Source: a virus
Virus record (IMG/VR): IMGVR_UViG_3300020452_000985
Location: 1 to 45,213 of that record
DNA: 45,213 nucleotides
Direction: 5' to 3' (one strand)
Each line of letters starts with the position of its first letter. Position 1 is the stretch's first letter. Positions 8,648 to 45,037 of this stretch are shown in pieces. The translations under genes were made by a program, and so were the position numbers. The notes beneath the pieces were generated by a model. The model saw only the letters and a program-made list of their open reading frames with translations, did no database searches and was not told where the DNA came from.

Positions 8648-8649
8648 GA

Positions 8650-10158
8650 TTATAGTTTATTGTAAAGAGCAGGATATTCTTTTTCAAAATCTTCACCATA
8701 AGTATCTTGCCATATTCTAGCAATTTCTCTTTTATCTTTAATCTTTCTTTGTCTGATAATTTTAACAATAGCTGGATAATGTTTTACAAAATCCTCACCG
8801 TAGGTTTTTTTCCACAGTGCTTCAATGTCTTCTTCAATATGATCTTCATGTTTATGTTTACCGTTTGAATCTTTTGTGCCATCTTGTTGAGATGATAATT
8901 CAAATAAATTACCTTCAAACATTTTTGCAAAAACTTTATAAATTTTATTCTTAGTCTTTGTGTCTGTTTTTTGTAAGTCCTTTTTGTACATTCCATACAT
9001 AAACTTTTCCCATTGCTTTTGATTCATTAGCCCTAAGAATTGAACATAATCGGCCATCTTATATACGGATGATTTATTATCATCAGCCATTTGTTTAATG
9101 TACTCACGTTCTTCCTTCCATTGATCCTTAGCTTCATTAACTGATTCTTTTAAGTATTGTCTCCACTTACTAAACTCCGGAGCCATATTTGTTCCACCGA
9201 CCTCATTGTCTTTTAATTTATCTTGAGCATCCAACCACTCTCTACTACCACTCGTTAACTGCATTGCAAATTTCTTTTTCAGATTAACGGCAAAGAGACC
9301 ACCAGGTAAACCAATTAAGAATGTACCTTTAGGAACTTTCGCATAATTTTTACCAGCAAAATGTAATGAGCCTACTGGCCCTCCAGTTGGTTTAGTGTTA
9401 TACTTTAACATTGCATCTTTTAATAAAATAGCTTGCCATTCAATACCTTCATTAATCTGTACTGATTCTTTAAATACAATAAAAGATTCACCAGCAGAAT
9501 TAGGATCTTCTAATTCTTTATACTTAACTCTCTTTTTATCTAAAAGCTTTTTAGTTTCAGGCCATGAACTTGCTACATAAGAATAAAGAATAACATTATC
9601 GTCATCATCAGTATCAAAACCTGCTTTCTTCCATATCTTTTTTGTGTCATCATCAGCATCAACTAAATAGTTAATTTCATCACCTATCTTTTTTAAATCT
9701 TTAACAATTCCTTCATACATCATATCAGGATGAAATTCCTTTTTCTTTTTCTTTTTCTTTCCATCATTAACTTCTTCTACTTTATCAGGTGCCATGTCTT
9801 TATACATTCCGTACAACCAATCCATAAAATCAGGAGTAGATTTGAATATCTTTGGAAAACCTTTCTTAAACTTTTTCTTAAAGTCTTCATAATCTTTTGA
9901 TGCATCTGCCATTAAATGAATGTTATCTAATACACCTTCTTTAATCATTCCTCCATGATCAAATTGAGATTTATTAACAGTAAAGGTTTTACCGTTTTCT
10001 CCTTTAAGCTTAAGAACATAACCATTATTATCTAATACTTCTACTTGGCCACCCATATATAAGATCTTTGAACCTTTTTTAATTTTCTTAAAATCTTTAA
10101 CATCAATTTTTTGTTGATACTGTTTAGTAAATTTTTCTAATGTAAGTATAAATCTCAT
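8650..10158 (-). CDS. Putative prohead-processed polyprotein (502 aa)
   Basis: It starts MRFILTLEKFTKQYQQKI, close to the N-terminal peptide seen in neighbouring genes. Two internal sites, KESVQINE/G (residues 231-237) and KESVNE/A (338-342), share the E-S-V-(x)-N-E pattern and would cut it into about 237-, 105- and 160-residue parts. A Lys run (KKKKKKK, 134-140) sits near the middle of the first part. WLYGMYK (114-120) and FMYGMYK (386-392) are related motifs. The C-terminus holds a tandem repeat: LWKKTYGEDFVKHYPA (448-463) and IWQDTYGEDFEKEYPA (482-497). It overlaps the upstream gene by one base. Virion-interior location is inferred. Confidence 0.62.
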   Translation of the reverse strand: MRFILTLEKFTKQYQQKIDVKDFKKIKKGSKILYMGGQVEVLDNNGYVLKLKGENGKTFTVNKSQFDHGGMIKEGVLDNIHLMADASKDYEDFKKKFKKGFPKIFKSTPDFMDWLYGMYKDMAPDKVEEVNDGKKKKKKKEFHPDMMYEGIVKDLKKIGDEINYLVDADDDTKKIWKKAGFDTDDDDNVILYSYVASSWPETKKLLDKKRVKYKELEDPNSAGESFIVFKESVQINEGIEWQAILLKDAMLKYNTKPTGGPVGSLHFAGKNYAKVPKGTFLIGLPGGLFAVNLKKKFAMQLTSGSREWLDAQDKLKDNEVGGTNMAPEFSKWRQYLKESVNEAKDQWKEEREYIKQMADDNKSSVYKMADYVQFLGLMNQKQWEKFMYGMYKKDLQKTDTKTKNKIYKVFAKMFEGNLFELSSQQDGTKDSNGKHKHEDHIEEDIEALWKKTYGEDFVKHYPAIVKIIRQRKIKDKREIARIWQDTYGEDFEKEYPALYNKL

Positions 10159-10826
10159 TATGATTGTCTTTTAATTTCGTCCTTAATATCTTTGTGAAAC
10201 ATTTTAATGTAATCTTTAGCACCTTTCTTATCACCATCTTCTATCCAATCAATAGCAATACCTAAATTTCTAAAAGGTGTATGGTAATTAACATCTGTTG
10301 CAGAATCAAATAATTGATTAAGTTTCTTAATAGGTGTTTTTTCATTAACAGTTAATGCAAACTTTAACATTCCATCATAATCAAAATCATTTGACCACAT
10401 ATCACCTGGTTTAAATTTCTTTGCTTCATCCATCTTTTCTGGTTTTTCATGAACATATCCCATTTTGCCCATTCTTAAATGATCTTCATATGTTTCAGCT
10501 TTATAACCTTTTCCTGTTTTAGGATCATACATCATATGAGGTTCAAAATCTTCTTTGTTTTCTAATAATTCAGGAAAGATGCCTTCAATATCTTGATCAG
10601 CCATATCATAGTTACGATCTTTTAAGAAACCTACAATATCTTTTTTCTTTCCTTTAAGCATTACCATTCCTGGTTCATACTCATCAGCATCTAATTTATA
10701 TTTCTTAGCCATCTTTTTTAAATCACCTGGCTTTACTTCAACAAAATCTATATCAGCTTCTCCATCCTTATTAGGATTTTTTAATTTTAACTTTTCTTCT
10801 AAATTTAAACCTTTAATGTATTTCAT
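10158..10826 (-). CDS. Putative capsid-targeted internal protein (222 aa)
   Basis: I place the start at MKYIKGLNLEEKL (10826), which matches the N-terminal peptide of 8321..8647 (MKYIKPLNE). A possible start at 10847 adds seven residues. The central part contains PHMMYDPKTGKGYKAETYED and MGKMGYVHEKPE, a segment I recognise as recurring in proteins of marine T4-like phages. Candidate (I/V/M)xE processing sites are KMDE/A (131-134) and TVNE/K (159-162). The C-terminus is a helical, basic segment. Function is unknown. Context suggests a packaged or core protein of the prohead. Confidence 0.6.
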   Translation of the reverse strand: MKYIKGLNLEEKLKLKNPNKDGEADIDFVEVKPGDLKKMAKKYKLDADEYEPGMVMLKGKKKDIVGFLKDRNYDMADQDIEGIFPELLENKEDFEPHMMYDPKTGKGYKAETYEDHLRMGKMGYVHEKPEKMDEAKKFKPGDMWSNDFDYDGMLKFALTVNEKTPIKKLNQLFDSATDVNYHTPFRNLGIAIDWIEDGDKKGAKDYIKMFHKDIKDEIKRQS

Positions 10827-17791: not shown

Positions 17792-19810
17792 TTATTTATT
17801 TACTTCTATTTTTAGTTGACCCTTTGCTCCTTTTACATTTATAATTCCACCTTCTGTTAATTCACCTTTGAGTATTAACTCAGATATTTTATTTTCAATC
17901 ATTCTTTCTAAAGTTCTTTTTAACGGCCTAGCACCATACTTAGGATCATAACCTTCTTTTAAAATTATTTGTTTTGCAGCTTTAGATATTTTTAATTTAT
18001 AATTTCCTATCTCTTTTAAATTAGTTGATAAATCTTTACATTCAATATTTAATATCTTCATTACATCATCTTCTTGTAATCTATTGAATACAACTATTTC
18101 ATCTATACGATTTAAAAACTCTGGAGAAAACCTTCCTTTTAAAGCTTTTCTTAATGTAGCTTTTTCATCTTCCATTTGAGTAGCTAACCTTTGCTTAGAA
18201 TTAAAACCTATCCCAGATCCAAACTCTTCCAGTTTTCTTGATCCTGTATTAGATGTAAGAATAACTAAACAATTTCTAAAATCAATTACTCTACCTAATG
18301 AATCTGTTAAATGACCATCGTCTAACATTTGTAGTAATACATTAAAGACCTCTGGATGAGCTTTTTCTACTTCATCAAATAATATAACAGAGTGTGGCTT
18401 TCTTTTTACCTGCTCTGTTAAAAACCCACCACCTTCATGCCCTATATAACCTGGAGGAGCTCCAATCATTTTAGAAATAGAATGAGGTTCCATATATTCA
18501 CTCATATCAATTCTGATTAATGCATCTTCACTATTAAAAAGATAATTAGCTACTTCTTTTGCTAATTGAGTTTTTCCTACTCCGGTTGGTCCTAAGAAAA
18601 TAAAATTACCTACAGTCCTATTTCTTTTTCTTATTCCTACTCTATTTCTTTGTATAGTTACAGAAATTTTATCTACTGCATCTTGCTGTCCGATTACTTT
18701 AGATGATAAGTGATCATTAATACCTAAAAGATTTTTATTTTCTTTATCAGATATTTTTTCTATAGGAACACCTGTTGCTTTTGAAACAACTTTAAGTACA
18801 TCATCTTCTAAAATTTCTAATTGATTAACCGCCATTTGTTCTTTCCATATACGGAGATCACTTTTAATTTTATCTTTAAGTGTTAAACATGCATCTCTTT
18901 CTTTAGCTGCTAATTCATACCTCTGTTCTTCAACTGCTCTTCTCTTATCATATTCTTTTTGAACTAGTCTTTCTTCTAAATTTTTAATTTTTTGAGGAAT
19001 CTTCATATTAGTTAAATGTTTATAAGAACCTACCTCATCCAATATATCTACAGCTTTATCTGGGAAATACCTATCAATAACATAACGGTCTGCTAATTTT
19101 ACAATAAGATCTATAATTTCATCGGAATAAGATACACTATGATGATCTTCATATTTATGCCTAATGTTAGAAAGTATTTCTATTGTTTGTTCCAATGTTG
19201 GTGGCTCTACAGTTACCTTTTGGAATCTTCTATCTAAAGCACCGTCACCTTCAATATTTTCTCTAAATTCATCAAAGGTTGTAGCCCCTATGCATCTAAT
19301 TTCTCCTCTTGCTAAAGCTGGTTTAATTATATTAGATGCATCTAAAGATCCGGTAGAACCACCTGCCCCAACTAAGGTATGTAATTCATCAATAAAAACA
19401 ATAATATGTGGATTAAGAATTAATTCATCTACAATAGATTTCATCCTTTCTTCAAATTGTCCACGATATTTTGTACCTGCAACGATAGTGGATAATTCTA
19501 ATGTATAAATGATTTTACCTTGTAATGATACAGGAACATTACCCTCAGACATCTTTAAAGCTAAACCTTCCACGATAGCAGTTTTACCTACACCCGGTTC
19601 ACCAACTAAAACAGGATTATTCTTTCTTCTCCTTCCTAAAATTTGTATGACTCTCAAAATTTCTTCAGACCTTCCAATCACTGGATCTAATTTACCTTCT
19701 ATTGCTCTTTTACTTAGGTTGGTTCCATAAGTATCCAACACTAAAGTGGTCTTTTTAAATCTTGGTGCTTTCTTTTGTTTTGATTCTTCTTCTGGATAAA
19801 TTTCTCCCAT
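17792..19810 (-). CDS. ClpC/ClpA-like double-AAA+ unfoldase
   Basis: The 672-residue protein has two AAA+ modules. NBD1 carries GEPGVGKTAIVEGLAL (Walker A), VFIDELHTLVGAGG (Walker B) and GATTFDEFRENIE. A short middle coiled segment (EYDKRRAVEEQRYELAAKER) follows. NBD2 carries GPTGVGKTQLAKEVA, ILFDEVEKAHPEVFN and GARPLKRTLERMIEN. A GIGFNSK loop in NBD2 matches the (I/L/V)GF ClpP-docking tripeptide. The N-terminal substrate/adaptor domain of ClpC/ClpA is absent. It could work with host ClpP to redirect proteolysis or act as a chaperone. No phage ClpP is in the window. A strong promoter candidate lies upstream at 19829. Confidence 0.9.
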   Translation of the reverse strand: MGEIYPEEESKQKKAPRFKKTTLVLDTYGTNLSKRAIEGKLDPVIGRSEEILRVIQILGRRRKNNPVLVGEPGVGKTAIVEGLALKMSEGNVPVSLQGKIIYTLELSTIVAGTKYRGQFEERMKSIVDELILNPHIIVFIDELHTLVGAGGSTGSLDASNIIKPALARGEIRCIGATTFDEFRENIEGDGALDRRFQKVTVEPPTLEQTIEILSNIRHKYEDHHSVSYSDEIIDLIVKLADRYVIDRYFPDKAVDILDEVGSYKHLTNMKIPQKIKNLEERLVQKEYDKRRAVEEQRYELAAKERDACLTLKDKIKSDLRIWKEQMAVNQLEILEDDVLKVVSKATGVPIEKISDKENKNLLGINDHLSSKVIGQQDAVDKISVTIQRNRVGIRKRNRTVGNFIFLGPTGVGKTQLAKEVANYLFNSEDALIRIDMSEYMEPHSISKMIGAPPGYIGHEGGGFLTEQVKRKPHSVILFDEVEKAHPEVFNVLLQMLDDGHLTDSLGRVIDFRNCLVILTSNTGSRKLEEFGSGIGFNSKQRLATQMEDEKATLRKALKGRFSPEFLNRIDEIVVFNRLQEDDVMKILNIECKDLSTNLKEIGNYKLKISKAAKQIILKEGYDPKYGARPLKRTLERMIENKISELILKGELTEGGIINVKGAKGQLKIEVNK

Positions 19811-20240: not shown

Positions 20241-20897
20241 CTAATAAAGTTTTCTAAGTAATTCTTTAGCTTTTTCTAATTCAGCTATTGTTTTTTTATC
20301 TAATCCTTTACCTCCACGATTAATATAAAAATTTAATCTTGACATTGCTTGTTTAAGATCATCACTATATTTTTTAAGTGTATCTGCTATTTCTTTAGCA
20401 GATTTAGTAAAAGTTCCTTCAGGTAGTTCATTATCTGTTTTTACTTTATCACTCCAGTTTTTATCTGCTTCTTCTAATTCTTCATCATCTATAGCAATTG
20501 TTCTCGCAGGAACTCTCATGGCAACTTCTTTTAAAGCTTTATTAAAATCAGGAGTATCAGGAAGTAAGTCATCAGCACCTAAAGCTTTTGCTCTTTTAGC
20601 AATAAATTTAGCAGCCTCAGATTTATTTTTAGCCAAACCAAAAGATAAGATTGCATTTTTTAAATCATCTAAATTTACTATAGGAAAACTCCCGTTAGGT
20701 AAAGCCAATCCTTTTTTAGCTAATTCTTTTCTTTCTTCTTCTGAAAACTTTCTTTCATTAACTTGATTCTCGTCAACATCGGTAATGATTAGGATATCAG
20801 CTAATTCTTTAGCATCCATATCTTCTTCTTGTTGCTTTACTTTATCTACAACTTTACCTTCTGATATAAATTGTTCGTATGTTTTAAAGTTTTTCAT
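20241..20897 (-). CDS. Putative prohead-processed internal protein with phage NGSFPI domain
   Basis: The N-terminus MKNFKTYEQFISEGKVVDK is strikingly like the T4 internal-protein capsid-targeting sequence (MKTYQEFIAEA), with ISE/G as the expected gp21-type cut. A second site is QVNE/R (residues 45-48). What follows, FSEEERKELAKKGLALPNGS then FPIVNLDDLKNAILSFGLAK and AAKFIAKRAKALGADDLLP, is a domain I know from many phage head-associated proteins (LPDGSFPI...DLKNAI...AKRAKALG). The 218-residue protein is helical and charged. Virion-interior location is inferred. Confidence 0.68.
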   Translation of the reverse strand: MKNFKTYEQFISEGKVVDKVKQQEEDMDAKELADILIITDVDENQVNERKFSEEERKELAKKGLALPNGSFPIVNLDDLKNAILSFGLAKNKSEAAKFIAKRAKALGADDLLPDTPDFNKALKEVAMRVPARTIAIDDEELEEADKNWSDKVKTDNELPEGTFTKSAKEIADTLKKYSDDLKQAMSRLNFYINRGGKGLDKKTIAELEKAKELLRKLY

Positions 20898-20898
20898 T

Positions 20899-22101
20899 TT
20901 ATACTCCTATTTTTGCGTATGTTAACATATCATTAATAGCAGCTAATGCTTTATTTTTAGCTCTATCAAATTCTTTACCGTATCTATTACCAGCTCCACC
21001 TTTCTTTAAACCTGAAACTATCGCCATACTTTTTTCAATATCCATCTCTTCTTTGGACTTTTTCATTCTAGGCGCAGCTTCATTTACTTCAACAGATTCA
21101 AACTTTTTAATGTTCTTTATAATTTTATTAATATCCTTATCTCCTATCTTTGCATATACAGCATTAGGAAATGAATTACCGATTGCAGCATTATAAACTT
21201 CACCATTAGGTCTTACTACATAACTTCCTCCTTCATATTTCTCACCACCCATTGATACTTCAAAACCAGCACCACGACCTGCATCATATTCCATATCATG
21301 AACTGCTGCTTTAGTTTTATCTAATTTTGCAATTGCTTTTGCTATTAATTCAGCAACATCTTTTACTTGATCTTCAGAAAAACTAAACTTAGCTTCATTA
21401 ATAGATTTTGCCCAATTACTTAAATCTTCAGACGTCTTTATTGTTCCGTCTTTAATAGCTCTTTCAAGTGCTATTTTATTCTTTCGAGACATCCCTTTTA
21501 TTACTTTCTTTACCTCTGCATGCGTTAATGATGCTTCATTAACTTTACTCTCATTAGCAAAATTATATTCCATATCTTCAGCCCAGTCCTCTACACTAAA
21601 ACTTCCATAATCCTTAAAGAATCTTTTAGCATTTCTTTTTGCCATTCTTTCAATTGATTTAACATAATCTTTCATCCATGACATTGGAAGTTTAACTTGT
21701 TTAGATGCTGCATCAATATCTAACATAATTTCTCCATAAGGTGTGGATCTTTTTTCATCTAAAGATTCAGCTTTCATTTTTTGTTCCTTACTCATTTCTT
21801 TAGCCTTAGCCTTAAGTTCTTTATATTCAGCTTTAATCTTTTTATCTTTGCCAATGTATCTGTCTAATCCCCAATTAAAAGCAGCAGTGAATAACATATA
21901 AAAAGGTAACTTACCGAATTTCTTTCCATAAGTAGACATTCTTTGCCAATCTAAAAATGCTTGAGCCATTTCTTTAGATAATTTAATACCTTCTACGGCT
22001 GAGGTAGATCCTTTTACAACATCTTTAAGTAATCTATCAGCAGCAACTCTTCTTTCGACGATGGAACCTACAGCTTCATCTATTCTTTTTAAGTTTTTCA
22101 T
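20899..22101 (-). CDS. Putative prohead-processed polyprotein (400 aa)
   Basis: It begins MKNLKRIDEAVGSIVERR, with a possible IDE/A cut after residue 9. Internal sites follow the same grammar: ESLDE/K (113-117), ESKVNE/A (184-189), KSINE/A (232-236) and ESVEVNE/A (335-341). Segments between them are basic and helical, except 237-341, which looks like a small alpha-beta domain (VHDMEYDAGRGAGFEVSMGG, GEVYNAAIGNSFPNAVYAKI). A T4-type protease recognising (I/L)xE would release several peptides. The start overlaps the 28-residue gene upstream by one base. No family is recognised for the whole protein. Confidence 0.62.
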   Translation of the reverse strand: MKNLKRIDEAVGSIVERRVAADRLLKDVVKGSTSAVEGIKLSKEMAQAFLDWQRMSTYGKKFGKLPFYMLFTAAFNWGLDRYIGKDKKIKAEYKELKAKAKEMSKEQKMKAESLDEKRSTPYGEIMLDIDAASKQVKLPMSWMKDYVKSIERMAKRNAKRFFKDYGSFSVEDWAEDMEYNFANESKVNEASLTHAEVKKVIKGMSRKNKIALERAIKDGTIKTSEDLSNWAKSINEAKFSFSEDQVKDVAELIAKAIAKLDKTKAAVHDMEYDAGRGAGFEVSMGGEKYEGGSYVVRPNGEVYNAAIGNSFPNAVYAKIGDKDINKIIKNIKKFESVEVNEAAPRMKKSKEEMDIEKSMAIVSGLKKGGAGNRYGKEFDRAKNKALAAINDMLTYAKIGV

Positions 22102-22187
22102 TACTTCTTTTTATTTTTATCACACCAACCTAAACATACTTTTTTAAAAGTTAATGTATAAATTGTATCACATATTAATTTCTTCAT
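22101..22187 (-). CDS. Micropeptide with CLGWC motif (28 aa)
   Basis: This short frame begins MKKLICDTIYTLTFKKVCLG and ends WCDKNKKK. It fills the gap between two internal-protein-like genes exactly, sharing the TAATG junction with the next one. Its C-L-G-W-C segment plus a Lys-rich tail looks deliberate, suggesting a tiny metal- or disulfide-binding or membrane-associated peptide. No family is certain, but position and junction support translation. Confidence 0.5.
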   Translation of the reverse strand: MKKLICDTIYTLTFKKVCLGWCDKNKKK

Positions 22188-22202
22188 AATATAATTATTT
22201 AT

Positions 22203-22748
22203 TTACCAAGGATTAGTACTTTTTAATCCTAATTGCTTTCCAAATAATGAAGGTCCATAACATGCCCAAAAGCCTGCTTTGTTAGGATCCATTTTTTTCT
22301 TTTGATCACATTGGTGTCTTGCCCAAAAACTAGCGGCTCTACCTGGATCATCATTCTTTACTGCTAATTTAGGATCTCCCCATTCAATTTTCTTTGCAAC
22401 AATCTTTCCTGTTTCTTTATCGGTTCTTCCACTGTTACGATAAACAATAAACTTTCTGTTACCTCCTCTTTCTGGTGAATCAAGTTTAACATTTTTAGTT
22501 CTTCCTGATTTACGATCTTTATAAATAGCAGCCTTTCCTACTTCAAGGTTTTTAGACATCCACCCACCTTTACCTTTTAATATAAGATTACCTTCATCCC
22601 AGTATTGTTTTGCTTCCTCAAATAATTTACCATGAGCATCAGATCCTAAACGAAAAACAGTATCTTCTAAACCTATACCATTATCTACATGATACTTAAG
22701 TTCTTCAGATACTTTATCAAAATCCTTAAAGCCTTTTACAAATTTCAT
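22203..22748 (-). CDS. Putative internal protein with phage ARHxC...GFWAC domain
   Basis: A 181-residue protein starting MKFVKGFKDFDKVSEELKYH, again in the style of the neighbouring N-termini. The C-terminal half contains RKFIVYRNSGRT, AASFWARHQCDQKKKMDPNK and AGFWACYGPSLFGKQLGL. This is a recurring domain in marine phage and phage-derived proteins (A-R-H-x-C-x-x-K-K...G-Y/F-W-x-C), with its conserved His and two Cys suggesting a metal site. It abuts the next gene upstream by sharing one base. Virion location is inferred from context. Confidence 0.62.
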   Translation of the reverse strand: MKFVKGFKDFDKVSEELKYHVDNGIGLEDTVFRLGSDAHGKLFEEAKQYWDEGNLILKGKGGWMSKNLEVGKAAIYKDRKSGRTKNVKLDSPERGGNRKFIVYRNSGRTDKETGKIVAKKIEWGDPKLAVKNDDPGRAASFWARHQCDQKKKMDPNKAGFWACYGPSLFGKQLGLKSTNPW

Positions 22749-24412
22749 TACTTAGGTAAACCTGTTGTTTTTAGTTTCTTATCTTGCCCTTTATCGATAA
22801 CTTCTTTAGCAATATCAGCATCAGCTCCAAACTTTCCTTTAGGCCCATTCTTTTTAGGATTATCTAAAGGCCTTCCCCAAGTACCAGGAGCTTTAGTTAA
22901 AAATGAATTAACTCTAGCATAACCCCACTGTTCTTGGCCGGCACCAGGTCTATGTCCACTTTTCCATGCGGCCATACCTCTTCTCATTACCAATCTTAAT
23001 AAGGGTAATGCTACACCAGTCTGTTCGGATTTCTTTTTAAGACCAGTTTCTATTCCTTTTCCTTTAATAGGACCACGATCACCACTTGCCTTTTCTTCAA
23101 GACCTTCACCTAAACCTTCTTCATAAAGATCTTTTAACCAAGAATCCATATCTTTATTAGGTTTAACCTTATCACTAAACTCTTCATAAAACATTTTTCT
23201 AAACTGATTAAAGTTTTTAGCCTCCTCCATCATTACATGTAATTCACTCATTACACTTTCATTAGTAACCATTTCTTCTAAGGCTTCATCAGCATATAAA
23301 TCATCAAATGCTTTAGTGTGTTTAGATTTCTTTAAAAGTTTTTTACCTTTAGTATCACCTGGCATTTCTTTATAAGCATCTGGATTATCATCAGACATCT
23401 GAGATTGCTTTTTCATTTGATCCACCTTTTGACGAGCGGTTGATGTAGATATGCCTTTATAATATCCATCACCTTCAATTTTATCTTCAAAGGATTCCTT
23501 CTCCTTTTTCTTTTCTAATAAAAATTCTGTATATTTTTTAATAAAGTTCTTTTCGTTAACTACAGATTCTGCAAATGCTTCAATATCCCATTGAATTCTT
23601 TGTATTGGATCTTCACCTCTAAATTCTTTCTTAGCCCATTGTAATAGACCTGGTTCGTGCTTAGCGTTTTGAGCCATATCGAATGCATTTCTCCAACCAT
23701 CGTTTGACGCGACATCTTCTAACCATTGGTCATATTTCTTTCTATTCCATTTTACTTTAGCAACAGCTTTCTTGTGTGGGCCATCACCTAATTTAGAAGT
23801 AGCAGCCATATAACTGCCAGGTTTAAATACATCAAGATCTTTACCAGTCTTATCATATTTAATCTCTTTTCTAAATCTTCTTAATGAATAATTACCGCCT
23901 TCAATTTGTTTACGCCTTATAACTTCTCCTTGAGATGCACCGATAGCTATTTTCATTTCTTCTGCTTTTTTAGGATCTGTTTCAAAATGTAGATCTCTAA
24001 CTGCATTTTCAAGAACAGGATCATTTACATCCATAGCTTCAGTAACTTCTTCAGATTCAAATGCCATCTTAGCAAGCTTTTTCATATCTCTACTTTTAAG
24101 ACCATAACTCTGTAACCTATCTTCATCACCATACTCAATAAAGAATTTTTCCATATCCTTAGGTCCTTCTTGGTTTAATATTTCCATGTATCTCTCCATT
24201 GCATCTGGATCTTCTGGTAACCATTCATCCATTTTATTTAAAGCAATGTCAAATTTATTTTCATTAACTTCTTCATCTACAGGAACACAATTATTAACTC
24301 TTTTACCAGTTTTAGAAGATATCTTTGTTTTAGGAGATCCTATTTTATAACCATCCCAACAAGGGCCTGACTTTTCACATAAGAATTGCTCGTACTCTTT
24401 TATATGTTTCAT
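22748..24412 (-). CDS. Putative two-part prohead-processed polyprotein (554 aa)
   Basis: It starts MKHIKEYEQFLCEKSGPCWD, an excellent capsid-targeting-like peptide, followed by a CWDGYKIGSPKTK...GKRVNNCVP module known from marine phage proteins. Cut-like sites: EEVNE/N (48-51), EEVTE/A (121-125) and AESVVNE/K (281-287). Directly after the last, residues 289-300 repeat the targeting motif (NFIKKYTEFLLE), nearly identical to the N-terminus of 44747..45037. The C-terminus has RRGMAAWKSGHRPGAGQEQW and GYARVNSFL, another recurring phage domain. I start at ATG 24412; a TTG three codons earlier is less likely. It looks like a fusion of two packaged proteins. Confidence 0.68.
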   Translation of the reverse strand: MKHIKEYEQFLCEKSGPCWDGYKIGSPKTKISSKTGKRVNNCVPVDEEVNENKFDIALNKMDEWLPEDPDAMERYMEILNQEGPKDMEKFFIEYGDEDRLQSYGLKSRDMKKLAKMAFESEEVTEAMDVNDPVLENAVRDLHFETDPKKAEEMKIAIGASQGEVIRRKQIEGGNYSLRRFRKEIKYDKTGKDLDVFKPGSYMAATSKLGDGPHKKAVAKVKWNRKKYDQWLEDVASNDGWRNAFDMAQNAKHEPGLLQWAKKEFRGEDPIQRIQWDIEAFAESVVNEKNFIKKYTEFLLEKKKEKESFEDKIEGDGYYKGISTSTARQKVDQMKKQSQMSDDNPDAYKEMPGDTKGKKLLKKSKHTKAFDDLYADEALEEMVTNESVMSELHVMMEEAKNFNQFRKMFYEEFSDKVKPNKDMDSWLKDLYEEGLGEGLEEKASGDRGPIKGKGIETGLKKKSEQTGVALPLLRLVMRRGMAAWKSGHRPGAGQEQWGYARVNSFLTKAPGTWGRPLDNPKKNGPKGKFGADADIAKEVIDKGQDKKLKTTGLPK

Positions 24413-24414
24413 AA

Positions 24415-25476
24415 TTACCAAGCGTAATTTTTAGCCTTTACTTTTTTAGCATAATCAGTAAGTCTTTTAGCATAAGCTTTAACTTCTCTTGCATAATAGT
24501 TATCTTCTCTACCATCAGCCTTTGCATCTTTATCTTGTCTTTCGTAATCCTTATATCTTTGATAATCATCTAACATATTTCGGATGGCATTTGCACCGTC
24601 TTTAATTGATACAGATCCACCTCTAGGACTTTTGCCAATAACAAAGTTTCCGTATTGATCCATTTCACCTTTATCTAAAGCATCAGAGATATGTTGATTT
24701 AGCATTTCAATTGAATCTCTAACTGCTTTATCAATATCAGTCATTGCTGCTTTATCTTGCAAGATAGCAGTATACCTTTTACGGTTTTCATCTTTAATTT
24801 CTTTAGCAGTTTTTAAGGCAGTTGCACCCATTTTAGAATTTGCACGATCTGATTTTAATCCACTTACATCGTATTTGTCTCTTAAACTATTTAAATCTAA
24901 AACATATACACGAGTTGCGGCATCAATAAGATTCTTTCTTGTTACTTTAGGAGCAGGAGCACCGTCCCATCCATTATACAAAGAACGAGTTTCATAATCT
25001 TTTGCAAGAACTCCATATCTATCATCCGCACCTTTTCTGTGTCGGCTATAAGTTGATCCTCTATCCATTGCAAAACCGGACCACATACCAACTCCACCTC
25101 TAACAACAGAAAGTACAACTCCATATTTAGAAATGTTCTTTAAATCTAATGCACCTGGCAAATATTTTTTGTTTGCTTTTGCCCACTTAATGAAATTCTT
25201 GTCATCATCAACAAAGAATCCTACTTTATTAGGATCTTTAGCATCAGGACCTTTCCAATAAGCTGCTGGTGTGGTTGTAGTAAAATCTGAATCTGAAATT
25301 TTATCAATAGCAAGATTAGCAAATTTTTGCATGTCCTTTGCTAAATTACCGCTCCATCTTGATTTTAACCCATCTTGAGAAGCAAAATCTCTAAGAATAG
25401 ATGAACTAAATCTTTCGGTAATTAAATCAATTTGTAGAGACTCTTTAAATAATTTATAGTCTTTAATATGTTCCAT
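24415..25476 (-). CDS. Putative internal virion protein (353 aa)
   Basis: The N-terminus MEHIKDYKLFKESLQIDLIT ends in ITE/R, compatible with targeting-peptide removal after residue 21. The mature part is a mixed alpha/beta protein with YGVVLSVVRGGVGMWSGFAM, a GSTYSRHRKGADDRYG loop and a long helical C-terminus (DDYQRYKDYERQDKDAKADG, AKRLTDYAKKVKAK). It could carry an enzymatic fold similar to ADP-ribosyltransferase-like internal proteins, but I cannot show catalytic residues. A candidate late promoter at 25490-25508 precedes it, so it heads the block. Confidence 0.6.
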   Translation of the reverse strand: MEHIKDYKLFKESLQIDLITERFSSSILRDFASQDGLKSRWSGNLAKDMQKFANLAIDKISDSDFTTTTPAAYWKGPDAKDPNKVGFFVDDDKNFIKWAKANKKYLPGALDLKNISKYGVVLSVVRGGVGMWSGFAMDRGSTYSRHRKGADDRYGVLAKDYETRSLYNGWDGAPAPKVTRKNLIDAATRVYVLDLNSLRDKYDVSGLKSDRANSKMGATALKTAKEIKDENRKRYTAILQDKAAMTDIDKAVRDSIEMLNQHISDALDKGEMDQYGNFVIGKSPRGGSVSIKDGANAIRNMLDDYQRYKDYERQDKDAKADGREDNYYAREVKAYAKRLTDYAKKVKAKNYAW

Positions 25477-27114: not shown

Positions 27115-27720
27115 TTAAAGATATCCTTTAGCTATTTTTCCTAAATAACCACTATGGTGCCTCTTAGCATATTCTGCTTTTGTAAATTTAATTTTTTTCA
27201 TTAATTCAACAACTAAGATATCACCTATCACTGTCATAAGAGTTGTAGATATAGTTGGTGTTAATCCTAAAGGACAAATTTCTTCAGCATCTCCTATATG
27301 TAAAATGATATCTGATTTCATTGCTAATGGACTTTCCTTATTACCTGTAATAGAAATAATACTAATATCAGAATACATTTGTTTAGATAATTCTACTAAT
27401 TCTAAAATTTCTCGTGTTTTTCCAGAGTTAGATAATAAAATAAGTACATCGTTCTTTTGAAGTATTCCTAGATCACCATGTTGAGCTTCGGTAGGATGCA
27501 AGTAAAATGCTGGAGTTCCTGTAGAACTAAAAGTTGTAGCAATGTTTAAAGCAATTTGGCCAGCTTTACCTATTCCTGATAATATTACCTTTCCATTAGG
27601 ACCTAAGCTATGAACTTTATTTCTAATTCTATTAATAGCCAATTCAAAAGAAAAGTCAATAGGGATATTTTTTATTGCCTCTATTTCCTTTTCAATTAAT
27701 TCCTTAATGTCTTCTTTCAT
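27115..27720 (-). CDS. kdsD: D-arabinose-5-phosphate isomerase-like SIS protein
   Basis: KdsD/KpsF/GutQ proteins interconvert ribulose-5-phosphate and arabinose-5-phosphate, the KdsA substrate. The 201-residue protein carries the SIS domain with VILSGIGKAGQIALNIATTF, SSTGTPAFYLHPTEAQHGDL (including the catalytic-site His) and DVLILLSNSGKTREILEL. It lacks the two C-terminal CBS domains of full-length KdsD, a form known in other bacteria. I start at 27720, where TAATG links it to the Gmd stop. It completes a KDO pathway with genes more than 24 kb away in the window. Confidence 0.85.
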   Translation of the reverse strand: MKEDIKELIEKEIEAIKNIPIDFSFELAINRIRNKVHSLGPNGKVILSGIGKAGQIALNIATTFSSTGTPAFYLHPTEAQHGDLGILQKNDVLILLSNSGKTREILELVELSKQMYSDISIISITGNKESPLAMKSDIILHIGDAEEICPLGLTPTISTTLMTVIGDILVVELMKKIKFTKAEYAKRHHSGYLGKIAKGYL

Positions 27721-28712
27721 TATCTTAAGGATTCCTTGCCTTGTAAAACATCCATCCAATGATCACACATTTCATGCATCATAGATTCAAAAGTATATTC
27801 TGGTTTCCATCCTAAAGTTTCTCTAATTTTTGTAGAGTCACCTTTAAGATATGGTAATTCTTCAGGTCTTAAAAATTTAGGATTTTGTACTACATAGTCC
27901 TTATAATCTAAATCTAAATATTTAAATACTAATTCACACATTTCTCTAACAGAATGAGTTTCCATTGTTGATACTACAAAATCATCTGCTTCATCATGAT
28001 TTAAAATAGCATGCATTGCTCTTACATAATCTTTTGAATGTCCCCAATCTCTATAAGAATCCATATTACCTAATTCTAATTTATCTTGTAAACCTAATTT
28101 AATAGAACATGCAGCTTTTACAACTTTATTAGTTACAAAATTACTTCCTCTTCTTGGAGATTCGTGGTTAAATAAAATTCCGTTAACTGCATGAAGTTTA
28201 TGAGCTCTTCGGTAATGTCTTACAATATTATAACCAAATACTTTAGAACATCCATAAGGTGATACAGGATTCATTATACTCGTTTCTCTTTGGAAGCCAT
28301 CATCTTCAACAGTTAAACCAAACATTTCAGAAGAAGATGCTTGATAAAATTTAGCTGTAGGACAGGCTCTTCGGTATGCTTCTAATATATTTAATACACC
28401 TAATGCATTTGTTTGAACGGTATATTGAGGAACATCAAAACTAACTCTAACATGACTTTGTGCAGCTATGTTATAAATTTCATCAGGTTGTATTTCTCCA
28501 AGTAATCTTTCTAAACTACCTTGATCGGATAAGTCTCCATAATGAGTTGTTAATTGGCCACTCTCATAAGCTGTAGTTAACCTGGCTGATTGATTTTCAG
28601 ATGTTGAATTTCTTCTTACAATACCATGTACTTCATAACCTAGACCTAGTAGGTATTCTGATAAGTATGATCCATCTTGACCATTAATTCCTGTTATAAA
28701 TGCTTTTTTCAT
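27720..28712 (-). CDS. gmd: GDP-mannose 4,6-dehydratase
   Basis: Gmd turns GDP-D-mannose into GDP-4-keto-6-deoxymannose, the precursor of GDP-fucose, GDP-rhamnose and GDP-perosamine. The 330-residue protein has the NAD(P) loop FITGINGQDGSYLSEYLLGL, the RRNS arginine segment, IYNIAAQSHVRVSFDVP, the catalytic SSSEMFG and YGCSKVFGYNIVRHYR, and FNHESPRRG. All are diagnostic for Gmd. Length is close to usual (340-370). GDP-fucose synthase (Fcl) is not found in the window, so the host or another phage gene must finish the pathway. Confidence 0.93.
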   Translation of the reverse strand: MKKAFITGINGQDGSYLSEYLLGLGYEVHGIVRRNSTSENQSARLTTAYESGQLTTHYGDLSDQGSLERLLGEIQPDEIYNIAAQSHVRVSFDVPQYTVQTNALGVLNILEAYRRACPTAKFYQASSSEMFGLTVEDDGFQRETSIMNPVSPYGCSKVFGYNIVRHYRRAHKLHAVNGILFNHESPRRGSNFVTNKVVKAACSIKLGLQDKLELGNMDSYRDWGHSKDYVRAMHAILNHDEADDFVVSTMETHSVREMCELVFKYLDLDYKDYVVQNPKFLRPEELPYLKGDSTKIRETLGWKPEYTFESMMHEMCDHWMDVLQGKESLR

Positions 28713-28733
28713 TTTCTTTTTAATTTTATTTAA

Positions 28734-29369
28734 TTATCTAGTTTGAAGATATGGATCTATACCTTCTTCTTTTTTATTAAAGACTGCCATCTTAGTTAAA
28801 TCTGGCCAATCTGTTATTACCCATTGTTTAGGTTTTGATTTAACCGCGTCATCAAATTTATCCAATCCTAACTGAGCAGTTTCAGGTGTCATATAATAAT
28901 GATACCCATAAGATTCAATATCTTGATCCCTCCAAGGAATTTCAGGTAGTCTTCCATCATATGACATTTTCTTCAAGGCAATTGCATCTTCTTCATTATC
29001 ACAAAGTATAGCACCACCTCGACCTAAAGATAAGTGCTTTTGAAATTGAAAACTTAAACACATAAACGATCCTGGAATATAACTATCTTTTTTCCATAAT
29101 ACCGCTGCATCATAAATAGGTTTAAAATGTTCATTAACTTTATAATAATCTTGCCACTCTTCATCTCTCCAATTTAGTTTTATATTTAATTTGTTAGCCA
29201 AAAAAGGAACGGAGATATAAGTTCTTTTAGGAACTGAAATATAAGAAAGATTTTGAAGTCTTAAACATAATTCAATTCCATGAGTGCATGCATCAAGGCA
29301 TACAACATAAGGTGCTCCAAAAAATTCACCTAATCTTTTTTCTAATTGTGTTACGGATTTAAAACTCAT
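28734..29369 (-). CDS. Short DegT/DnrJ/EryC1-type sugar aminotransferase
   Basis: PLP-dependent sugar aminotransferase-like. FFGAPYVVCLDACTHGIELC matches the cofactor-phosphate-binding start, KPIYDAAVLWKKDSYIPG is the central Asp region, and SFQFQKHLSLGRGGAILC holds the PLP lysine with the G-x-G-G signature. At 211 residues it lacks the C-terminal half of the usual 370-400-residue enzyme, so it may be a minimal phage version or non-catalytic. Next to Gmd it could make a 4-amino-4,6-dideoxymannose (perosamine) derivative, but that is inference. Confidence 0.78.
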   Translation of the reverse strand: MSFKSVTQLEKRLGEFFGAPYVVCLDACTHGIELCLRLQNLSYISVPKRTYISVPFLANKLNIKLNWRDEEWQDYYKVNEHFKPIYDAAVLWKKDSYIPGSFMCLSFQFQKHLSLGRGGAILCDNEEDAIALKKMSYDGRLPEIPWRDQDIESYGYHYYMTPETAQLGLDKFDDAVKSKPKQWVITDWPDLTKMAVFNKKEEGIDPYLQTR

Positions 29370-29393
29370 AATCTATATTATTATATTATATAT

Positions 29394-30296
29394 TTATATT
29401 GTTGGAAGTATAAATTGTTTAAAAATAAAGTCTTCAGCATGCAAAAGTTTTTTAGCTTTTTTATAATTTTCTAATACAGCTTTTTCTTTACTCTTATATA
29501 AATCAATATCTAAATCATTTATATCAAAATTTTCATCCATGATAATAATACCATCCAAATTAAAAAAATCACCGATGTTTGGTATTCCATAATAAACAGG
29601 AATTGTACCAGTCATAAAGCAATCGGTTAATTTTTCTGTAAACATATTTGAATACGTAGCATTTTCCATTGCAATAGAAAAGTAATAATTTTTTAAACCT
29701 TCAGCCTTATCTTCAATTTCATGATAACCTCTACCATAATGATCAACTCCAAAGTTAGTATATTTTTTAATCATTTCTTGTCTATATTCATGAGCTTCAC
29801 ATAATACTTTATCCGAGGCAATCATAGATATAAGTTTATCTTTTTTAGGAAACTTTCCATTTTTAAAATACTTATCTTCTAAAAAAGATTTACCTGAACA
29901 CAATGTAAGCTGAAATATATCATCCATCTCAGCAAGCTTTTTATCATGAGTAAATACTTTAATAAATTTCTTCTTTAATTCTTCTATATTATTTTCACAC
30001 CATTCATATATAGAATATCTTTCTTTTATTTCTTCCTTTGCATAATAAGGCAATCTTTTAGTATGCCATTTATAATAAAAAGAAACAGGCCTAGCTTCAC
30101 ATAACCAACCATAATTTTTACCTTTACTATAAAAAGAAGAATATCTTCCAATTAATGCATCATCAATATGAATAGTAATCTTCGCCGTGGCTAATCCTTG
30201 TACCCAATCTACATATTTAGTAGGACTACCCGTTGAAGATATGGTATGCTGAAAGCCACCACCACTCATATTAATTTTTGTTTTCTTAATTGCCAT
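29394..30296 (-). CDS. GT10-family alpha-1,3/4-fucosyltransferase
   Basis: The 300-residue protein has the GT10 block YYFSIAMENATYSNMFTEKL, then TDCFMTGTIPVYYGIPNIGD, FFNLDGII. In the N-terminal half VDWVQGLATAKITIHIDD and the Tyr/Lys-rich segments are less conserved. It should use GDP-fucose and an oligosaccharide acceptor. It differs clearly from the other GT10 at 2578, so the two probably make different linkages. It overlaps the sulfotransferase-acyltransferase gene by 11 bases. Confidence 0.87.
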   Translation of the reverse strand: MAIKKTKINMSGGGFQHTISSTGSPTKYVDWVQGLATAKITIHIDDALIGRYSSFYSKGKNYGWLCEARPVSFYYKWHTKRLPYYAKEEIKERYSIYEWCENNIEELKKKFIKVFTHDKKLAEMDDIFQLTLCSGKSFLEDKYFKNGKFPKKDKLISMIASDKVLCEAHEYRQEMIKKYTNFGVDHYGRGYHEIEDKAEGLKNYYFSIAMENATYSNMFTEKLTDCFMTGTIPVYYGIPNIGDFFNLDGIIIMDENFDINDLDIDLYKSKEKAVLENYKKAKKLLHAEDFIFKQFILPTI

Positions 30297-31563
30297 CAGC
30301 CATTAATTGTTTTGCATTTTCTTTAATCTTACTTCCGTCAATTACCTTTACTAATTTAGCAGGATTTCCTTTATAAACACCCCAAGGTTCAGTATCACCT
30401 ATTAATAAACTCCCAGCTGCCAATAATACACCTTCTCTTAAAATAGATCCTGGTAAGACAATAGAATTAGTTCCTATATTAGAAAATTTTTCCATAATTA
30501 CTGGTTCTATAATTTGCTTTCCTTTTAGATCTTTTGGTATTAATGCTCCAAATAATCCGCTGTCATCAAACCTATCAGAACCACAAATTATTCTGGCACC
30601 TGCCATAATATTATTAAAACCTTTACATTCAAATTGACCAGTCTTACCACCTATGATTGTTGTATAAGGTGAGATGTGAGTATAACTCCCAATCTTAGCA
30701 TTCACCGTACAATAAACGCCTTTATCAATTGCTATATGATCTCCTAATTTTGGTTTAATTTTAAACTCTGCATCGGAATGTATAAAAATATCTCTATCTT
30801 CAAAATAACATTTTACATAATCTGTTAAATGAGAATAGTCTGATGATATTAAATCATCCATAAAATATTTTTGTTCATCTGTAAATACTTTAGAATGAAA
30901 TATGCTTTGGCCTGCTGGTGATTGAGAACCACCTAATGGCTTATATAAAACTTTACATTCATTAGATCTTTCTTCATATGTATCTAAAAATGCATCTATT
31001 AATGTAATGTCACCATCTAAAAAATTAATTAACTTTATAAGTGATTCTTTAATAGTTTCTTTATTAATTAAATCTTCATAATAAAGTAATAATTTTTCTC
31101 CTTCGTAATTATGATAATCATTTAATAGAGATAAGTAATGAATAAGATCTAATGAATTTCCATCATTGGCTTCATTAAATATCAACTCAAGATTTGTTAA
31201 TTTACCTATATCTTTAAAGTTATTATCATAAATTTCAAATGGATAAGCTACATTAATATGTCTTGGTATACATTCTTTATAATTACGTAATATTAAGATA
31301 TGCTTTCCTTTGGCTTTTTTAAGCATCTTATTAACCTTAGGTTCATGTCCATGAGTATTCCACAATGTATCATTATCTTTTGTATCTTTATTTTCACTAT
31401 TAATACTAGGAGATAAAAGATGTAAAGGTTTTCTCATAGGAGTATTAGCTGGTTCACAAACGGTTTCATACTTTGTAAAATATTCTACCAAGTATCTTAA
31501 CCAATTGTTTCCACTTCTAGGATAACCTATTATAGAACCTTTACATGTATATGTTTTTTCCAT
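30286..31563 (-). CDS. Fusion of sulfotransferase and left-handed beta-helix acyltransferase
   Basis: The N-terminal 250 residues are a sulfotransferase: GSIIGYPRSGNNWLRYLVEY is the PAPS 5'-phosphosulfate loop, and KHILILRNYKECIPRHIN fits the 3'-phosphate site. The C-terminal part (about 265-415) shows the hexapeptide pattern of acetyltransferases: VYCTVNAKIGSYTHISPYTT, IGTNSIVLPGSILREGVLLA, GSLLIGDTEPWGVYKGNPAK. The 425-residue protein may thus both sulfate and acylate a glycan. The reading frame is open throughout, so the fusion is not a sequencing artefact of adjacent genes. It sits between a cupin and a GT10 gene. Confidence 0.83.
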   Translation of the reverse strand: MEKTYTCKGSIIGYPRSGNNWLRYLVEYFTKYETVCEPANTPMRKPLHLLSPSINSENKDTKDNDTLWNTHGHEPKVNKMLKKAKGKHILILRNYKECIPRHINVAYPFEIYDNNFKDIGKLTNLELIFNEANDGNSLDLIHYLSLLNDYHNYEGEKLLLYYEDLINKETIKESLIKLINFLDGDITLIDAFLDTYEERSNECKVLYKPLGGSQSPAGQSIFHSKVFTDEQKYFMDDLISSDYSHLTDYVKCYFEDRDIFIHSDAEFKIKPKLGDHIAIDKGVYCTVNAKIGSYTHISPYTTIIGGKTGQFECKGFNNIMAGARIICGSDRFDDSGLFGALIPKDLKGKQIIEPVIMEKFSNIGTNSIVLPGSILREGVLLAAGSLLIGDTEPWGVYKGNPAKLVKVIDGSKIKENAKQLMADGN

Positions 31564-31566
31564 CTT

Positions 31567-31986
31567 TTACTTTGTTTCTATAAATGTTTTATCTAACTTT
31601 TGACCTTCATACGGTCCTGTCTTATATTCATAAACAACAGTATCATCCTCTAAGATAACATAATTATGACCACCTTCTAAAGTAAAAGATGCATCACCTG
31701 GTTTTAATATAGGAGTTGCTAAAACGGTATCATCAAGATCATAAAATATACATTTCACACTACCATGAACTACTATCCAAGACTCTTGAGCAATTACATC
31801 TCTGGTTCTATTTTTCCAAATATGTTTATGTGGCTTAAATGTTTTTCCTTGATCCATTTTTAAAGTAGAACATTGAATAAATTGTTCTTCAGGAATAAGA
31901 TCTTCTCTAGGTTCAACAATTTCTGAAAATCTTTGTACTATATGTAATAGTTTTGTAGGATCTACTTTTGAATAAATTTTTTCCAT
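31567..31986 (-). CDS. Cupin-fold protein, polysaccharide-cluster type
   Basis: The 139-residue protein has TFKPHKHIWKNRT with a His pair, and a jelly-roll core ESWIVVHGSVKCIFYDLDDT, TPILKPGDASFTLEGGHNYV. Its end YEYKTGPYEGQKLDKTFIE resembles cupins that sit in O-antigen and capsule clusters, including WbuC-like proteins. Those are thought to act on sugar nucleotides or bind metals, but the reaction is not established. It is followed three bases later by the sulfotransferase fusion gene. Confidence 0.75.
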   Translation of the reverse strand: MEKIYSKVDPTKLLHIVQRFSEIVEPREDLIPEEQFIQCSTLKMDQGKTFKPHKHIWKNRTRDVIAQESWIVVHGSVKCIFYDLDDTVLATPILKPGDASFTLEGGHNYVILEDDTVVYEYKTGPYEGQKLDKTFIETK

Positions 31987-31991
31987 AATGT

Positions 31992-33536: not shown

Positions 33537-33537
33537 A

Positions 33538-34209
33538 TTAATCTTTTAAGTGCTGTGTATTAGTTTCAAATTTACTTATCATCCAACTATAATCAATAAC
33601 TTGGTTATGTATATCACTAAAACTATTTTCTTGTATAGCTGTTATAGGATATGAACAAAAACAATTCCCTTTTGCTTGTCCATTTTCGGATAGCCAAACA
33701 TCAATTATTTCAATTTCTTTTTTATCAAAAGCATCTATTACTTTATCATAAAATCTTTCATGGTATGCAACAGCATGGGTAGCAAAGCCTTCTTTTAGTT
33801 CTAATAGATTTTCACTAACTTTATTTAAAGGTGTATGTGTATTAGAACCTAAATAAAATAAATTCCATTCCGTGTCTTTAAGTTGTTCTATTGAAGCATT
33901 AATATATTCTTGGTTTATAAATTTAACATCATCTTCTAAAACTAAAACAGATTTCCATCCCATCTGTTTTGCCATTTTTACAATAAGTACATGAGATGAA
34001 ATACAACCGTATTCACCTAACTTAATTTGTTTACCATCACTTACATACCAATCAAACTCTTTTTGAGGCGGAGGTACTGCACGAAACCTTTCTACAATAT
34101 TATCTACACCATATTCTTTAAATGCTTTATAGCGGGCTTCTAATCTGTCTGGTCTTTTATCCAAATTAATTAAAAATACTTTGTCAAAATATTCAAATCC
34201 TTTTTTCAT
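33538..34209 (-). CDS. GT25-family glycosyltransferase
   Basis: The 223-residue protein starts FDKVFLINLDKRPDRLEARY, the GT25 opening, and has KSVLVLEDDVKFINQ with the acidic metal-binding motif EDD, then WNLFYLGSNTHTP. GT25 members include LPS beta-galactosyltransferases (LgtB/LpsA type) and eukaryotic collagen hydroxylysine galactosyltransferases. It is the most divergent of the three GT25 genes here. It overlaps the next gene upstream by one base. Confidence 0.86.
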   Translation of the reverse strand: MKKGFEYFDKVFLINLDKRPDRLEARYKAFKEYGVDNIVERFRAVPPPQKEFDWYVSDGKQIKLGEYGCISSHVLIVKMAKQMGWKSVLVLEDDVKFINQEYINASIEQLKDTEWNLFYLGSNTHTPLNKVSENLLELKEGFATHAVAYHERFYDKVIDAFDKKEIEIIDVWLSENGQAKGNCFCSYPITAIQENSFSDIHNQVIDYSWMISKFETNTQHLKD

Positions 34210-37232: not shown

Positions 37233-37233
37233 T

Positions 37234-44742: not shown

Positions 44743-44746
44743 TGTT

Positions 44747-45037
44747 TTATTTTTTAAATTCTTGTTTTGGTTTTGCTTTCTTTTCAGTTCCTTTTGGAGC
44801 TCGGTGGTATACGTGAGTTGACCATGGGTCTTCTTCCTCACATTTACAAGCATCGATATGCTCTCCGCATCTCGGGCAGTCGTCTTCGACTTGTTCCAAC
44901 TCATCTGCTATTCTTTTTTCGAGTTCTTTATCAGAACCGTCATTGTTTTCAAATTCTTTCTTTTCTTTATCTCCTGCATGTTTTACTGCTTTATCCCTAA
45001 CCTCTAAAAGAAATTCATTGTACTTTTTAATAAACAT
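44747..45037 (-). CDS. Zinc-ribbon protein with capsid-targeting-like N-terminus (96 aa)
   Basis: It opens MFIKKYNEFLLEVRDKAVKH, nearly identical to the internal copy in 22748..24412 (FIKKYTEFLLE). LLE/V fits the (I/L)xE cleavage rule. A zinc-binding segment CPRCGEHIDACKCEEED follows at about residues 54-70, then a basic tail (KGTEKKAKPKQEFKK). It may be a packaged DNA-binding protein, by inference. It is far (20 kb) from the main block of such genes. Confidence 0.62.
   Translation of the reverse strand: MFIKKYNEFLLEVRDKAVKHAGDKEKKEFENNDGSDKELEKRIADELEQVEDDCPRCGEHIDACKCEEEDPWSTHVYHRAPKGTEKKAKPKQEFKK

Follow-up and report, generated by a model that had tools for sequence, protein, structure and literature searches.

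A putative family of packaged polyproteins with capsid-targeting sequences and predicted prohead-protease sites in a fragment of a T4-like phage

The phage T4 internal proteins IPI, IPII and IPIII, together with Alt, carry a short hydrophobic N-terminal capsid-targeting sequence (CTS) with a terminal [ILV]xE are processed by an S77 prohead protease (gp21) and are ejected; their accessory genes are clustered and vary between relatives. In the CTS of IPIII, roles have been described for residues 4, 7, 8 and 10, with processing depending on residues 8 and 10 (PMC9026906). Here we analyze the IMG/VR record IMGVR_UViG_3300020452_000985 (the window, meaning the whole 45,213-bp stretch), a fragment of a marine T4-like phage in which a preliminary description had proposed nine CTS-led genes, named here by the first coordinate given in Table 1. 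These genes resemble the T4 set in the form of the CTS and in being clustered and variable between relatives, and an S77 protease is encoded in relatives of the window phage. However, the T4 proteins yield one mature cargo each, by N-terminal removal (plus C-terminal processing of Alt), whereas the window family has up to five predicted segments per precursor, exchanges modules between genes at the predicted cut sites, and often has a CTS three residues longer. We consider it probable that the family extends the T4 internal proteins into a system of packaged polyproteins that are cleaved in trans and whose modules shuffle; its cutting, retention and ejection we infer.

Other described systems share parts of this arrangement. 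Head and ejection proteins of phiKZ and SPN3US also receive several prohead-protease cuts per protein at x-x-E sites, but the extra cuts lie within discarded propeptides (PMC5694885), whereas the window sites separate conserved modules. Polyvalent proteins (Iyer et al. 2017) likewise combine many domains per injected polypeptide with strong architectural mosaicism, and their authors themselves draw the polyprotein analogy (PMC5512222). They differ in having embedded peptidase domains and other delivery routes (MuF, portal, type IV secretion system), whereas cutting in the window family is predicted to occur in trans by the prohead protease; a Pfam search of the window proteins returned no embedded peptidase and no polyvalent marker or effector domain. 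Virion data come from the T4-like cyanophages S-CREM2 and S-SM1, in which a CTS-led cytidylyltransferase and other enzymes were found by mass spectrometry; neither a CTS nor internal processing is discussed in the passages of those publications covered here. A literature search, with subscription journals and preprints mostly outside its coverage, found no description of exchangeable modules released by a prohead protease.

All the open reading frames (ORFs) named in the preliminary description were found, every one on the minus strand. Five CTS genes (20241, 20899, 22203, 22748 and 24415) form a tight block at 20241-25476, a second block holds 8321, 8650 and 10158 (8321-10826), and 44747 is isolated (44747-45037). 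When a CTS profile was run on 1719 ORFs from 25 related records, 106 N-termini reached at least 8 bits as against 1 shuffled sequence and 0 mid-protein segments, a scan that is partly circular since its seeds were taken from these same proteins. Seven window proteins reach that threshold; 44747 was left out of the scan by an overlap filter, and its CTS, read directly, is conserved in relatives. Eight of the nine proposed N-termini are thus clearly T4-type, with hydrophobic residues around positions 4 and 7 and hydrophobic-x-Glu at the end, but that of 8650 is degenerate (1.9 bits); its homologues have MKYIKLFEKF. In many relatives the CTS ends in FINE, FLNE or FVNE, corresponding to FIAE at the end of the T4 IPIII CTS. 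Separately, CTS-led enzymes were noted in the related stretches L006 and L009, including a RimK-type ATP-grasp with a Zn-protease-like domain, a poly(A) polymerase/CCA enzyme, a cytidylyltransferase and an AAA-like ATPase. LR756500, a 462-kb uncultured huge phage whose gp23 (the capsid protein) is 51% identical, encodes roughly twelve proteins led by a CTS in its first 246 kb, and some of these are clear paralogues (MKYIKEYEDFINE/A...LELIAKLAKVS; here and below a slash marks the presumed cut).

The eight internal sites that had been quoted are all present: INE237 and VNE342 in 8650, VNE189, INE236 and VNE341 in 20899, VNE48 in 20241, and VNE51 and VNE287 in 22748. A comparison with shuffled proteins of equal composition, suggested in the preliminary description, bears the motif out. 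The window CTS proteins contain nine [ILV]NE beyond residue 25 where 1.34 are expected, none of 2000 composition-preserving shuffles reached nine, and the reversed motif EN[ILV] has a count of 0. Across 66 CTS proteins from eight related records [ILV]NE is enriched 5.1-fold, with decoys in the same proteins at 0.96 ([ILV][^N]E), 0.83 ([AFGWY]NE) and 0.90 (EN[ILV]); the excess is significant alone in six of nine records and weak in G005 and G006. When non-CTS proteins were ranked by [ILV]NE excess, gp21, gp23 and CTS proteins missed by the filter stood among the top few, so the motif marks head proteins. The INE/VNE grammar first proposed stands as an enriched motif, but the consensus is wider, [ILV]xE with N favored, since the P1 Glu is conserved (0.78 versus 0.56 for other Glu) and the P2 Asn is not. 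This wider grammar adds sites absent from the preliminary description: LDE116 in 20899, IKE74 in 8650, LKE124 and LEE143 in 20241, VTE125 in 22748, and in 10158 an MDE with Met at P3. The TVNE/K of 10158, also considered, is probably not a cut site: it lies inside a conserved domain and reads VNH in relatives. We regard it as very improbable that the motifs merely reflect shared ancestry or composition, that is, a paralogue family with Glu-rich linkers unrelated to head assembly. Many members are indeed related and the linkers are rich in Glu, yet the effect is missing in the shuffles, the reversed motif and the decoys, the CTS also leads otherwise unrelated proteins, enzymes among them, and homologous packaging is seen in S-CREM2, as described below.

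A missing prohead protease had been named in the preliminary description as grounds for giving up its reading. The window fragment itself is without one, but relatives carry an S77 protease with the GELDHP and SSRA motifs. In the 181,663-bp relative G008, homologues of the CTS-block genes follow in collinear order at 72940-78051, and the same genome has genes for a portal (4e-73), for an S77 protease (3e-14) and for gp23 (8e-31); the protease is present in G003 too. GELDHP and SSRA occur in 50 distinct gp21 sequences, which were gathered by motifs such as these, and VNE/S[YF]G stands at the end of the protease domain in 50/50. In the gp23 of relatives, INE/[AS] lies near the N-terminus, and all aligned sequences have LNE/[SG] around residue 46, the place expected for maturation from T4 gp23. 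By analogy with T4, the gp23 LNE and the gp21 VNE are presumed to be maturation cut points, and the sites of the CTS proteins share their grammar (LNE/[SG], VNE/S). As a side observation, the gp21 protease (L017:18182-19903 in G008, and in 50 relatives) is a fusion whose coiled-coil tail looks like a scaffold and contains Y[ILV]xE repeatedly, giving a length of about 564 to 756 amino acids (aa), with one shorter at 344 aa; in the Tenacibaculum phages PTm1 and PTm5 the annotation reads 'prohead core scaffolding protein and protease'.

The sites also coincide with the borders of exchangeable modules. Module A, which is 43 aa long and is matched by at least 347 IMG/VR stretches, was followed through 42 distinct contexts: where more sequence lies downstream, [ILV]xE occurs within 10 residues after it in 28 of 31, and where the module ends the protein, in only 2 of 11. 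Judged from these sequences, the site occurs where something remains to be separated. Module B (KKFKPGDxWS) is preceded by MDE/A, LNE/A, VTE/A and LNE/A in four genomes, at least three of which differ in its upstream neighbor, and module C has hydrophobic-x-Glu directly before it in all five contexts seen; for A, B and C alike, the neighbors vary and the E junction stays. Aligned homologues of 20899 (window, G001 and G008) exchange whole modules at identical E/A positions. A homology search shows gene 22748 to be a fusion, since its relatives there matched either aa 77-298 or aa 290-554, not both. Its second half is a gene of its own in L001, starting MEFIKKYTEFLLE, nearly the peptide that follows ESVVNE/K in the window, and the FIKKYTEFLLEKK of 22748 is identical to the N-terminal region of that stand-alone gene. 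(An alignment of 22748 with its relatives was left out, its N-terminal half being misaligned.) Taking BLAST ends as approximate breakpoints, local-homology ends lie within 5 residues of [ILV]NE 2.8 times and of [ILV][DST]E 3.9 times as often as of random positions, with decoys at 0.4-1.2. Consensus sites at module boundaries thus exceed chance in motif, breakpoint and module-context tests. Because a predicted cutting site bounds each module, processing would be preserved when modules are exchanged, inserted, joined or divided between genes.

We also weighed the idea that these are polyvalent-type multidomain proteins that enter the cell uncut, with ESVxxNE serving as a flexible linker or as a scaffold-binding motif copied along with a former N-terminal CTS. 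One junction, that of 22748, demonstrably holds such a former CTS, and some transferred polyvalent proteins do enter whole (PMC5512222). We nevertheless find this improbable: the site is nearly absent after a C-terminal module, the presumed processing sites of gp23 and gp21 have the same grammar, and the hydrophobic P3 and the P1 Glu are conserved, as for a T4-type protease.

Evidence from virions comes from cultured relatives. The same modules occur in cultured T4-like phages of Methylophilales and Pelagibacter (window 22748 against HTVC008M gp130, E=2e-30). The Kyanoviridae (Melnitz, HTVC008M) share modules with the window family, but their sites resemble VxE or LDE, not VNE. Mass spectrometry of virions of the T4-like cyanophage S-CREM2 detected an S-adenosylmethionine hydrolase, a kinase, a Cas9-like nuclease and a cytidylyltransferase (PMC10665884), and a cytidylyltransferase is also present in S-SM1 virions (PMC3037559). 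All four S-CREM2 proteins prove to be CTS-led, with MKDFDSFLEE, VKRFDAFLTE, LRFASFMAE and MKNFSSFLTE at or near the start. A T4-type CTS is found in 5 of 27 detected non-structural virion proteins and 3 of 163 undetected ORFs (Fisher p=0.0017, an optimistic value because the CTS pattern was fixed after a few of the S-CREM2 N-termini had been seen), with 2.25 matches expected over 213 ORFs from shuffles. As a side observation, the CTS of the Cas9-like nuclease (OR473000, 7704-10313), LRFASFMAE/A, lies about 20 residues from the annotated start; such a CTS on a virion-detected protein suggests a packaged nuclease in S-CREM2. S-CREM2 ORF160 has a CWxGY module whose match to the window is one of pattern alone, with no significant BLAST hit.

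These virion data bear on a further explanation, under which the CTS proteins belong to the prohead core or scaffold, as T4 gp22, gp67 and gp68 do, with sites that serve shredding and exit before DNA packaging. The site grammar is common to the scaffold-like gp21 tail with its many Y[ILV]xE repeats, and in T4 the core proteins receive many cuts and for the most part leave the head (PMC5694885). Even so, mature S-CREM2 virions contain CTS-led enzymes, enzyme domains occur in several CTS proteins of relatives (RimK ATP-grasp, poly(A) polymerase/CCA enzyme, cytidylyltransferase), and the modules are conserved, folded-looking and shuffled, with sites falling between them and not inside. We therefore think a scaffold role unlikely.

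Several points weigh against a packaged and cleaved polyprotein system, besides the optimism of the Fisher test and the Glu-rich linkers. An S77 protease was not found in the 45-kb window, which is itself a fragment, and G016 has no internal [ILV]NE excess in the per-record shuffle test. The P2 Asn itself is not conserved (0.51 versus 0.53), and [ILV][^NDST]E is likewise somewhat in excess near breakpoints (1.8-fold). Sites and modules were counted across related genomes and are thus non-independent samples. The AlphaFold2 model of 20899 favors the reading in that its confidence drops at residues 184-192, 235-239 and from 337, the positions of the three NE sites, but the model is weak overall (mean predicted local distance difference test, pLDDT, 55). 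The virion proteomics comes from S-CREM2, outside the clade of the window phage, and speaks for presence in virions, not for position inside the head or internal cleavage.

On the reading that we favor, the N-terminal CTS, usually ending in F-[ILV]-x-E, would dock the precursor to the prohead core; the shell would assemble, and the S77 prohead protease would then be activated and cut in trans after [ILV]xE (x often N) during head maturation. The targeting peptide would be removed and leave, longer precursors would release two to five small modules, and the modules would remain alongside the DNA in the head and, on infection, probably pass into the cell. Docking and cutting of the precursor are supported by the sequence and comparative evidence; retention of the modules in the virion is suggested by relatives, and their ejection into the host we infer. 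The earlier proposal of a targeted precursor cut into several packaged peptides gains from the protease in relatives, the shuffling at [ILV]xE and the S-CREM2 virions, but does not extend to all nine genes: four of them (8321, 22203, 24415 and 44747) are single-cargo, T4-internal-protein-like proteins without internal sites, not polyproteins. Such members would be of the ordinary T4-internal-protein kind once shown in virions, and the multi-module members would be the new part.

Coordinates of the genes and predicted cuts are collected in Table 1. The true starts of 22748 and 10158 are probably ATG 24412 and ATG 10826 instead of upstream TTGs, so that the breakpoint at aa 54 of 22748, counted from the TTG, corresponds to aa 51 from the ATG. 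The order of parts in 22748 is CTS, CWDGY module, VNE51/, helical module, VTE125/, LENAVRDLHF module, VNE287/, former N-terminal CTS and DUF5824 module (Pfam E=1.4e-13); DUF3175 in 20241 was likewise matched by Pfam (E=7.7e-11). For module C, the name DUF6582 found no support in Pfam and was dropped. Residues 1-74/75 of 8650 recur in other genomes, ending HGGxIxE. The homologue of 24415 in L006/L007 is the C-terminal part of longer polyproteins, with FLNE/A just before it. The protein 22203 has a homologue (E=4e-27) in the cultured Flavobacterium phage vB_FspM_immuto_3-5A (immuto; MW353176), which also encodes an S77 protease (QQO92118) and an 841-aa protein containing NESVNE/G and KESLNE/D (QQO92109). 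For 20899 and 24415, no function match came from Pfam, PHROGs or Foldseek against the PDB, and the AlphaFold2 model of 24415 is weak (mean pLDDT 58).

Table 1. CTS genes and predicted processing sites in the window (positions of the window; bits are CTS profile scores).
Feature	Position	Strand	Basis or content
CTS protein 24415, single cargo, 353 aa	24415..25476	-	N-terminus MEHIKDYKLFKESLQIDLITE/R
CTS of 24415, up to LITE21/R	25414..25476	-	20.7 bits
Polyprotein 22748, 554 aa	22748..24412	-	ATG start 24412
CTS of 22748, MKHIKEYEQFLCE/K	24374..24412	-	27.5 bits, top score in window
22748, E51 of EEVNE/N, predicted cut	24260..24262	-	Homology breakpoint there; EEVNE/K in G008
22748, E125 of EEVTE/A, predicted cut	24038..24040	-	VNE/G before next module in G008
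22748, E287 of ESVVNE/K, predicted cut, fusion junction	23552..23554	-	Relatives match one side only
22748, internal former CTS, NFIKKYTEFLLE/K	23513..23548	-	Resembles stand-alone gene start in L001
CTS protein 22203, single cargo, 181 aa	22203..22748	-	MKFVKGFKDFDKVSE/E and phrog_7595-type domain
Polyprotein 20899, 400 aa, four predicted cuts, five segments	20899..22101	-	Modules exchanged with G001 and G008 at same E/A junctions
CTS-like N-terminus of 20899, MKNLKRIDEAVGSIVE/R	22054..22101	-	13.0 bits; ILE/R in relatives
20899, E116 of ESLDE/K, predicted cut	21754..21756	-	Homology breakpoint aa 116
20899, E189 of ESKVNE/A, predicted cut	21535..21537	-	pLDDT dip 184-192; different module at junction in G008
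20899, E236 of KSINE/A, predicted cut	21394..21396	-	pLDDT dip 235-239; 47-aa module before it missing in G001
20899, E341 of ESVEVNE/A, predicted cut	21079..21081	-	Homology breakpoint aa 341; pLDDT dip from 337
Polyprotein 20241, 218 aa	20241..20897	-	CTS MKNFKTYEQFISE/G, QVNE48/R, module C, ALKE124/V, ELEE143/A, DUF3175
20241, E48 of NQVNE/R, predicted cut	20754..20756	-	Breakpoint and module-context analyses
20241, E124 of ALKE/V, module C end	20526..20528	-	LxE in 5/5 homologues
20241, E143 of ELEE/A, DUF3175 segment start	20469..20471	-	Sequence; homology ends nearby, aa 145
Polyprotein 8650, 502 aa, degenerate CTS	8650..10158	-	Predicted cuts after IKE74, INE237, VNE342
8650, E237 of ESVQINE/G, predicted cut	9448..9450	-	Upstream module also in G008 gene 92487, ending ESIDLNE/A
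8650, E342 of KESVNE/A, predicted cut	9133..9135	-	Motif scan
Polyprotein 10158, 222 aa	10158..10826	-	CTS MKYIKGLNLEE, module A (DFEPHMMYDP..HEKP), KMDE/A, module B (KKFKPGDMWS)
10158, E of EKMDE/A between modules A and B	10425..10427	-	E/A before module B in four genomes
CTS protein 8321, single cargo, 108 aa	8321..8647	-	MKYIKPLNE/G; 17.8 bits; G008 homologue
CTS protein 44747, single cargo, 96 aa, CxxC pair	44747..45037	-	MFIKKYNEFLLE/V; homologues in eight other stretches

The gene at 44747-45037 overlaps that at 44455-44904 by 158 bp in a different frame; 44747, being conserved in eight other stretches, is a real gene despite this overlap, and its conservation suggests that the start of 44455-44904 lies further downstream. 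The remaining observations on the window were read by eye. A ClpA-like AAA+ protein is encoded at 17792-19810, immediately downstream of both the CTS block and a cupin-like gene, and in G008 a ClpP-like gene (80514-81182) comes next after the counterpart of this gene. A long run of sugar-nucleotide, glycosyltransferase and acetyltransferase-like genes (27115-39362) separates the CTS block from the PhoH/lysozyme region. At 6845-7465 lies a secreted-looking protein with a C-terminus like a type IX secretion sorting tail, from which the host of the window phage is probably a Bacteroidetes bacterium.

Taken more broadly, the balance tips slightly toward the view that one general injected-polyprotein system is common to marine T4-like phages, ranging from Bacteroidetes phages to Kyanoviridae: a CTS would load interchangeable modules, and the maturation protease would release them in the prohead. 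Since that protease would free the modules at the cut site, the site would in such a system also be the recombination boundary for reshuffling of the payload. If the reading is true, an abundant marine phage group delivers several proteins per gene, with the head-maturation protease as its polyprotein processor. The rule of a CTS at the start and [ILV]xE between modules would then predict the injected proteome of many uncultured phages and give a list of excised modules in which to look for anti-defense or host-takeover activity, and existing cyanophage virion proteomes would be open to an immediate re-search for the sites.

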